Positions 3,201 through 9,671 of a stretch of 11,826 nucleotides of DNA are shown piece by piece. A model generated the notes under the pieces. It searched no databases. It saw nothing but the letters and a program-made list of their open reading frames with translations, and was not told the DNA's origin. The stretch is from Spartobacteria bacterium (GTDB lineage Bacteria; Verrucomicrobiota; Verrucomicrobiia; Chthoniobacterales; Terrimicrobiaceae): positions 1 to 11,826 of the forward strand of contig CANKXQ010000024.1 of the NCBI GenBank assembly GCA_947487745.1, in the 5' to 3' direction. The translations under genes and the position numbers were made by a program. The stretch's first letter is position 1. Every line of letters begins with the position of its first letter.

Positions 3201-4247
3201 ATGAAAAAATACAAAAACGCATCAGACATCCGCGTCGGAGTCATCGGCTACGGCGGCGCCTTCAACATGGGGCGCGGTCACCTCAAGGAAATGGAAAAGG
3301 CCGGCATGATGCCGGTGGCCGTCTGCGAGGTTGATGCCGAGCGGTTGAAAGTTGCCGAGACTGATTTTCCCGGCATTCAGACTTACTCCACGGTCGCCGA
3401 AATGCTCCGCAAGTCGGATGTGAATTTGGTCACAATCATCACGCCGCACAACACGCACGCGAAGCTCGCGCTGCAATGTCTCAAGGCCGGTCGCCATGTG
3501 GTTTGCGAGAAGCCACTGGCCATCACCACCGCCGAGTGCGACGCCATGATCGCCGCCGCCAAGAAAGCCGGCGTGGTGCTCTCGACCTACCACAACCGGC
3601 ACTGGGATGGTTGCATTCTTAGCGCCATCGATCACATCAAGAAAAACAAGCGCATCGGTGAGATCGTGCGTGTCGAGGCGCGCATGGGTGAGCGAGCGCA
3701 GCCTGGCGATTGGTGGCGCGGCAGCCGCAGCATTTCCGGCGGCATCCTCTACGATTGGGGCGTGCACTTGCTGGAATACAGCCTGCAACTCATCGACTCC
3801 GAAGTGGTGGAGGTGAGTGGTTTCGCCAAGTCCGGCTACTGGGCGCCGAAAACTAAGTGGAAAAAAGACACCATCGAGGACGAGGCCAGCGCCACCATCC
3901 GTTTCCGCAACGGTGTTTGGATGCAACTCACGACCAGCGCGATCGATTCGAACAAAAAGCCCGGCACACTCGAGATCACAGGCACCGAGGGCAGCTACAT
4001 TACGGACATTCGCGGATATGGCAGCGGCTACGAAGTGCGCACACGCACAGGCCAGTCACTCACCGTCGAGGAGGGCAGGCACCGCCCCGACGAATGGCAC
4101 TGCTTTTATCAAAACATCGCCGATCACCTCACCAAAGGCACAAAGCTCGTCATCACGCCCGAGTGGTCGCGCCGTCCCATCCACATCATCGACCTTGCCG
4201 TGCAGAGCGCGAAACAAGGCCGCACGCTGGCTGCCAAATACCACTGA
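3201..4247 (+). CDS. Gfo/Idh/MocA family oxidoreductase 1 (ThuB-like position)
   Basis: A 348-residue NAD(P)-dependent sugar or cyclitol dehydrogenase. Residues 11-125 form the Rossmann domain (VGVIGYGGA at 12-20), with TPHNTH (81-86) and the family motif CEKPLAIT (102-109; Lys104 is the conserved catalytic/cofactor lysine). Residues ~130-340 form the alpha/beta substrate domain, with the active-site stretch [10 protein letters not shown] (184-193) giving the Asp185/His189 pair of classical members. There is no signal peptide, so it is probably cytoplasmic. A TTG at 3177 overlapping the ThuA stop could serve as start, but ATG 3201 begins a normal N-terminus. The protein ends LAAKYH-stop, and those last codons recur downstream at 8859-8876. 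By analogy with ThuB it may oxidise C3 of a glycoside; that is inference from context. Confidence 0.92.
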
Positions 4248-4249
4248 TC
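4230..4249 (+). repeat. Junction direct repeat, copy 1 (end of oxidoreductase 1)
   Basis: The last codons and stop of oxidoreductase 1 plus TC. It matches 8859-8878 with a single T/C mismatch (4232 versus 8861). The 17-nt core GCCAAATACCACTGATC is exact. Both copies are followed by a short C/A-rich leader and a gene starting ATGAAAACCGAACA. The left edge of a ~4.6-kb CAZyme block. Confidence 0.85.
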
Positions 4250-4258
4250 GAACCCAAC

Positions 4259-8858: not shown

Positions 8859-8878
8859 GCCGCCAAATACCACTGATC
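8859..8878 (+). repeat. Junction direct repeat, copy 2 (orphan oxidoreductase 3' end)
   Basis: Encodes AAKYH-stop (8859-8876) with no oxidoreductase gene in front of it; it matches the true end of oxidoreductase 1 (4230-4249) at 19 of 20 bases. An in-frame TAA lies just before it (8853-8855), so it is not part of a functional reading frame. It marks the right edge of the CAZyme block, 25 bp before the isomerase 1 start. A short similarity to oxidoreductase 1 may extend further left (GAAGCAAGCCG at 8822 against GAAACAAGGCCG), but this is weak. Confidence 0.8.
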
Positions 8879-8903
8879 AGCCCAAAATAAACACCAACAT
8901 AAC

Positions 8904-9671
8904 ATGAAAACCGAACAAATCGCCGTTCAGCTCTACACGCTGAGAGACTTCACCAAAACTCCCACCGATTTCGCAGCCACGCTGCGCCGGGTCCGCGAAA
9001 TCGGCTATCATGCCGTCGAACTCGCGGGAACCGCCGGCCTGACTCCAGCCGAAGCTACACAAATCGTTCACGACGCCGACTTGCAAATCTCTTCCAGCCA
9101 CGAGTCTATGGAATTGATTATGAAACAACCGCAGCAGGTGGTGGATCGCTTGGGTGAGTTTGGCATCACTCATGCGGTTTATGCCTATCCCGCCGGTGTC
9201 GACTTGTCGAATGCCGCTCAGGTCGAGAAGATGATTGCTGACCTCGATGCCGCCGGTGCCGTGTTGCGCCGTGCTGGCATGACGCTGTGTTATCACAACC
9301 ACGCCCACGAGTTTTTTCAACGCAATGGCCGCACCGTGCTGGATGATCTTTTCGCTCGCACCTCGCCGGAGCATCTTCAAGCCGAACTCGACATCCATTG
9401 GGTCCAGGCCGGCGGTGGTGATCCTGCCGAAGCATGCCGCCGCCTCGCCGGCCGCCTGCCCCTTCTGCATGTGAAGGATTTTACCGTCACGGCACAGGGC
9501 GAACGCCTGTTTGCGGAGGTCGGATATGGAAACCTAAACATACCGGAAATCCTCACTGCCGCCGAGGCCGCAGGATGCCAATGGTTCATCGTCGAGCAGG
9601 ACACCTGCCCCGGCAATCCGTTCGAATGCATCGCTCGCAGCTTGGATTATCTCAAGGGCCTGTGCGAGTGA
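8904..9671 (+). CDS. Sugar phosphate isomerase/epimerase family TIM-barrel protein 1
   Basis: A 255-residue xylose-isomerase-like TIM barrel (AP_endonuc_2 fold, COG1082). Seen in order: strand 1 IAVQLYTLRD (6-15), GYHAVELAG (34-42), ISSSHESME (62-70), CYHNHAHEF (129-137; E136), AELDIHWVQAGG (160-171; D163), LLHVKDF (187-193; H189), and FIVEQD (228-233; E231). E136/D163/H189/E231 sit where this fold places its divalent-metal ligands. Members act as sugar isomerases, epimerases or, in oxidative glycoside routes, as C-glycoside or 3-keto-glycoside cleaving enzymes. ATG 8904 follows a G-free A/C-rich leader. Its start shares 14 bases with beta-galactosidase. It is followed at 30 bp by oxidoreductase 2, suggesting they act in sequence on the same sugar. 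Fold firm; reaction unknown. Confidence 0.9.
   Translation: MKTEQIAVQLYTLRDFTKTPTDFAATLRRVREIGYHAVELAGTAGLTPAEATQIVHDADLQISSSHESMELIMKQPQQVVDRLGEFGITHAVYAYPAGVDLSNAAQVEKMIADLDAAGAVLRRAGMTLCYHNHAHEFFQRNGRTVLDDLFARTSPEHLQAELDIHWVQAGGGDPAEACRRLAGRLPLLHVKDFTVTAQGERLFAEVGYGNLNIPEILTAAEAAGCQWFIVEQDTCPGNPFECIARSLDYLKGLCE

Follow-up and report, generated by a model that had tools for sequence, protein, structure and literature searches.

Probable import of a carbohydrate gene block into a ThuA-oxidoreductase-isomerase operon of a Spartobacteria genome, with a mosaic oxidoreductase gene at its left end

Among the known routes by which foreign genes are joined to a resident genome, the one closest to the locus that we describe here is homology-facilitated illegitimate recombination (HFIR). 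In three competent species and in Escherichia coli, homology on one side has been described together with illegitimate joining at the other (PMC3240628). A brief look at the literature, which covered its sources in part, brought up no such event swapping cassettes in carbohydrate loci. Our locus resembles HFIR in that foreign DNA appears to have been inserted beside a homologous anchor on one side, with an opposite end that may lack homology and with no transposase found inside.

The window, by which we mean the whole stretch of 11,826 nucleotides analysed, is the entire contig C24 (CANKXQ010000024.1) of a metagenome-assembled genome (GCA_947487745.1, here G000; 1.5 Mb, 64% complete). It carries a divergent AraC-type regulator gene (1645-2490, minus strand; PF12833 and PF00165), which keeps the same position in relatives (94% identity to G011, 84% to G012 and 72.5% to G010). 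All on the plus strand, there follow the native operon gene ThuA (2533-3180; PF06283; 90% to G011), a first Gfo/Idh/MocA oxidoreductase gene, OX1 (from 3201), a GH2 beta-galactosidase gene of 1038 aa (4259-7375), a GH29 fragment (7379-8644), a short and truncated third gene (8641-8852), the complete xylose isomerase-like TIM-barrel gene ISO1 (8904-9671; PF01261; 86% to G011), a second Gfo/Idh/MocA gene, OX2 (9702-10781; 93% to G011 over 295 aa), and ISO2 (10813-11826; PF01261; 96% to G012), which reaches the contig end. Upstream and outside the block, about 1.3 kb before ThuA, lies a PD-(D/E)XK nuclease family transposase gene (62-1192; PF12784), and a short frame at 1403-1582 matches CopG_antitoxin slightly below the curated cut-off (27.0 versus 28 bits).

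The carbohydrate genes are framed by two copies of a gene junction. The end of OX1 (4230-4249) recurs at 8859-8878 (pair D18; 20 nt, 19/20, 95%), with the one mismatch that the original prediction had reported, and it stands there without its gene, again as predicted. A second pair (D4; 4251-4272 versus 8896-8917; 22 nt, 20/22, 91%) keeps the same order at both places, and the repeat is longer than first described, since it runs through stop, spacer and 14 nt of ISO1 (4230-4272; 8859-8917). In the left copy the OX1 end is followed, after a stop-to-ATG spacer of 11 nt, by ATGAAAACCGAACA, the first 14 nt of ISO1. The right copy holds the last OX1 codons with one mismatch, the stop TGA and TC, then a stop-to-ATG spacer of 27 nt (8877-8903) versus the 11 nt of the left copy, G010 and G011, and then the full ISO1 gene. 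Four exact 16-mers are repeated in the window, all of them within these two stretches; 200 two-base-block shuffles gave a mean of 0.03, and four were reached in 1/200. The same ordered sequence on both sides of the block is what transposition with a 43-bp target-site duplication would leave, but we regard this as very improbable: target-site duplications are typically far shorter than 43 bp, the spacer of the right copy differs, the four block frames scanned contain no transposase domain (as had been claimed of the block from the start), and no inverted pair lies at the block ends among the 25 listed of the 27 found (at least 16 nt). The inverted pair I17 (17 nt, 82%) is weak and sits about 240 bases inside each block end.

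The state of the site before the insertion can be examined in relatives. OX1 was searched in 58 genomes, 15 of them from the same genus besides G000, and close orthologs (about 80%) were found in three of those 15 (G010, G011 and G012); G019, a genome from the same family, has one at 64%, and G025 has pieces only. In all three relatives with a close OX1, ThuA, OX1 and ISO1 follow one another with nothing in between, an arrangement that the original prediction had named as the mark of an insertion. In G011, ISO1 is followed by OX2 up to the contig end; in G012 the GH-free operon of ThuA, oxidoreductase, isomerase, oxidoreductase and isomerase that had been foreseen is present, spread over two contigs; in G010 no OX2 follows ISO1 within the stretch fetched. 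The native junction of G011 is identical to the left copy of the window at 42 of 43 nt, and the spacer measures 11 nt in G010, as in the left copy, and 10 nt, differing, in G012. More widely, an OX1 relative occurs in 28/384 genomes of the class, and neither GH2 nor GH29 appeared around the OX1 relatives of ten class loci, G019 and G025 in the stretches fetched (short for G207). The direct gene order of the three relatives thus makes it well supported, as far as sequence comparison goes, that the GH genes entered a conserved operon at a later time, in line with the original prediction. That prediction had also envisaged their loss by recombination between the repeat copies, which our data do not support: no excised form was found, and the empty relatives look ancestral, with a single junction resembling the left copy. 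As for GH genes that were ancestral at the site and lost in relatives, we found no supporting point, the GH-free junction is conserved in 3/3 species and no other genome searched in the order has this GH2 at E 1e-200, which leaves this reading hardly credible; nor did any relative among the genomes searched combine intact GH genes with a second OX1, the arrangement that the original prediction had set against its own reading.

Other gene orders were seen in these searches. Another oxidoreductase-like gene (about 25% to OX1 and OX2) follows ISO2 in G012 (C192, L137; 2409-3125); the order is similar in G002, G004, G007 and G008, with a ThuA-like gene beyond in G002, G004 and G007. In G025 the OX1 relative in pieces lies beside ThuA (C51, L025; 9175-9501) and is possibly a decayed copy.

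The left side of the block reaches further than the repeat. Judged from identity and tree placement, OX1 is a mosaic whose C-half belongs to another OX1 clade. Its N-terminal part (3201-3612, with the Rossmann domain) is of the native type and 82-97% identical to the three relatives, and its C-terminal part (3613-4152) appears to be a foreign, B-type allele. In 60-column bins, identity to G010, G011 and G012 falls from 87-95% at 3553 to 63-67% at 3613, remains at 43-83% until about 4153 and then returns to 85-95%, and the three relatives agree at 83-100% among themselves over 3613-4152. In FastTree trees of 39 sequences (34 from the 120 proteins listed of 2818 found, plus five from loci), the N-half groups with the A types of the genus (supports of 0.55 and 0.89 for the two nodes shown), while the C-half falls in a B clade with 12 members (support 0.97) and is 97% identical to P0001. 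The A type looks native and B acquired because the four-residue insert of B is absent from G019 and from the ten typed class loci, none of which comes above 66% to the B-type P0005 in the C-half; P0002 groups with B, yet has no insert. The imported segment thus seems to begin near 3613. Besides G000, no match to P0005 above 78% was found in the 384 class genomes searched for a B-type donor, and a search for OX1 context in IMG/VR returned a single partial match at 31%. P0003 is a second OX1 mosaic, with an N-half 100% identical to G011 (L022) and a C-half of B type, which suggests more than one such exchange. A tentative and rather doubtful reading goes further and sees in OX1 a standing docking gene, whose conserved N-half would act as homology arm for repeated swaps between strains, C-domain variants and linked carbohydrate genes being exchanged without a dedicated recombinase.

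The GH2 gene has complete domains (PF02837, PF00703, PF02836, PF16353 and PF02929: sugar-binding, GH2, TIM barrel, domain 4 and small-chain). Of the block content originally predicted, the beta-galactosidase and the broken fucosidase stand, while the 'beta-helix' stub has no Pfam match. The 14 nt of the ISO1 start continue the native junction unbroken, and for this reason GH2 is strongly suggested to have taken the ISO1 start codon: its start codon is most likely that of ISO1, fused in frame at histidine. The last six of these 14 nt carry most weight, because ATGAAAAC also begins GH29 in the window. Among the ten next-closest GH2 proteins (P0122-P0131), six start with M/V-R-x-I before (H/Y)(E/D)WEDP, for instance MRSIKHEWEDP in P0122 (90%) and MRRIEHEWEDP in P0126; P0123 and P0125 begin inside the gene and are uninformative, P0130 starts with MTMRNIKIEWENP, and P0131 starts with MKNDWENP, an example of the short MK starts that occur naturally in GH2. 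The gene is still an open frame, and its translation, if any, would proceed from the old ISO1 start site.

No GH2 donor was found in the samples of species representatives searched (family, order, phylum sample and named genomes). At E 1e-200 the gene is found in 1/213 genomes of the order, its own, and at 1e-220 in 11/387 of the phylum sample (its own and ten others), the best match (68%) being in another family of the phylum. At 1e-60, 10/26 genomes of the family match, the nine others at 36-44%, and the best of 65 loci of the named collection reaches 59%. Cluster P0121 holds four GH2 sequences on two contigs (longest 11775). In G482 and G428, GH2 is present without GH29 and without OX1 above 35%. 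In a genome of the same genus, G005 (C10, L117; 6559-10682), a GH29 relative (42%) lies directly before a GH2 relative (33%), and in L039 a GH29 piece (39%) is near a 59% GH2; the two families thus do sit together elsewhere too. GC and codon-position content, considered as a sign of foreign origin, are uneven over the block and not decisive: GC is 0.62 in GH2, 0.54-0.55 in the GH29 parts and 0.56-0.59 in the flanking genes, and the contrast with the flanks that the original prediction had proposed to look for does not separate the block.

The remaining genes of the block are in decay. Compared with the intact P0242, GH29 survives in three pieces (residues 4-102; 101-154 in another frame; 278-554), with a frameshift near 7672-7678 and a loss near 7811-7833 of residues 155-277 of P0242 (about 123 codons), WFDG included, so that the barrel is incomplete. 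We take the WFDG stretch to hold the GH29 nucleophile. By this comparison the window GH29 is a dead pseudogene. Its break is no assembly slip, since another record (P0241, 21 member sequences) shows the same broken form at 98% identity. Judged by the matches themselves, no GH29 donor was found in searches of the family and of a phylum sample, one of which did return GH29 hits, and its context had no match in IMG/VR. The stub of the third gene at 8641-8820 has no Pfam match, no source for the stretch was found in the family, and we assume its N-terminus to be a beta-helix-like motif. An assembly chimera in this 64% complete metagenome-assembled genome would fit the fact that both joins lie in sequence common to the native junction, and this contig is the only one in which the joins at 4272 and 8857 were observed. 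The recurrence of the broken GH29 speaks against a chimera, as do the presence of GH2 in P0121 and that of the mosaic OX1 at 98% in P0001 (400 member sequences), but these three bear on GH29, GH2 and OX1 respectively and not on the joins; overall we find a chimera improbable.

The right end admits two forms. At the join (about 8857) the block meets 20 nt from the end of OX1, and the 27-nt spacer matches no relative seen. Within ISO1, the window is closer to G012 than to G011 over 8961-9080 and closer to G011 in most bins from 9081, and this change of nearest relative speaks for a second crossover rather than for illegitimate joining at the right end. The block might already have stood in the donor, flanked by a B-type OX1 and ISO1, and have been imported whole through two ordinary homologous crossovers, which the OX1 switch at 3613 and the ISO1 change near 9081 would mark. 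This course has the import step in common with the explanation that we prefer and departs from it at the right end. The signal in ISO1 is weak, amounting to about 10% in two 60-column bins, and the sets searched yielded no donor; we hold this course to be possible though not likely.

A different history would start from a tandem duplication, from OX1 to a downstream GH cluster, after which the first copy lost ISO1-OX2-ISO2, a loss that fuses the ISO1 start to GH2, while the second ISO1 keeps an OX1 end ahead of it. Both junctions would then follow from one duplication and one deletion. The original prediction had named a tandem duplication with later loss as an alternative. P0244 (598 aa, longest contig 5606 bases) joins the ISO2 N-terminal part in frame with the GH29 C-half; it may be a genuine fusion, the result of a deletion or a chimera, and it hints that another strain could have GH29 downstream of ISO2. 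The longest contig is 19055 for both the A-type OX1 P0026 and the intact P0242, which is only a lead. Against this history, the foreign OX1 C-half is left unexplained, ISO2 is followed in G012 by the oxidoreductase-like gene and not by GH genes, the two spacers differ, and G000, though 64% complete, has a single GH2 match at E 1e-60; we consider it unlikely.

The best explanation, and in our judgement a reasonably probable one, is that the OX1 C-half and the GH block were imported together through a homology anchor in OX1 and decayed later. We infer the mechanism as a whole as follows. A ThuA-OX1-ISO1-OX2-ISO2 operon would have acquired from another bacterium some 5.2 kb of DNA, made of a B-type OX1 C-terminal part followed by GH2, GH29 and the third gene. 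At the left end, a homologous crossover would have taken place within YHNRHWDG, a conserved stretch of OX1 (about 3600-3613). At the right end, the segment would have been joined, as in HFIR, without long homology just before the resident OX1 stop, in which case the stub at 8859-8878 before ISO1 would be the remnant last codons of the resident OX1, or else a second crossover would have occurred inside ISO1. GH29 and the third gene would then have decayed. The fusion of ISO1 to GH2 and the new right spacer would require a further event, and since the left junction looks native past the foreign stretch, the fusion calls for an event that was separate or came earlier. G000 encodes a ComEC-type Competence domain, a weak pointer given that 10/14 control genomes also have one. 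Several points weigh against the preferred explanation: no donor was found, the ten typed loci are without the B insert, the right spacer is unmatched, P0131 has a short MK start, P0244 favours duplication and deletion, and GC does not separate the block.

What is added here to the original prediction is that the OX1 C-half itself appears foreign and that the GH2 start codon is most likely that of ISO1. If this is right, the locus would matter for the ordered steps that it retains (empty site, import, likely start-codon capture, decay) in the entry of sugar-degrading genes into an operon. Such entry may happen with no mobile element found inside the block, and a single oxidoreductase gene, OX1, is a possible point of repeated exchange. 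The two carbohydrate genes are like GH2 beta-galactosidases and GH29 alpha-L-fucosidases in their Pfam domains, and unlike typical members in that the GH2 start probably comes from the neighbouring isomerase gene and GH29 is broken. The sharp mosaic boundary of OX1 in a conserved motif, with halves that group differently in trees, recalls intragenic allele or domain exchange, but unlike in plain intragenic exchange, the exchanged half directly adjoins an inserted carbohydrate gene block. The homologous anchor that characterizes HFIR is found on one side, where OX1 is native to 3612 and foreign from 3613. Unlike HFIR as described, our case is deduced from an old event, with an extra step of ISO1-GH2 fusion, a right end that may be a second crossover and no donor sequence found. 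It is thus an event of a known kind, with an unusual record of its steps.
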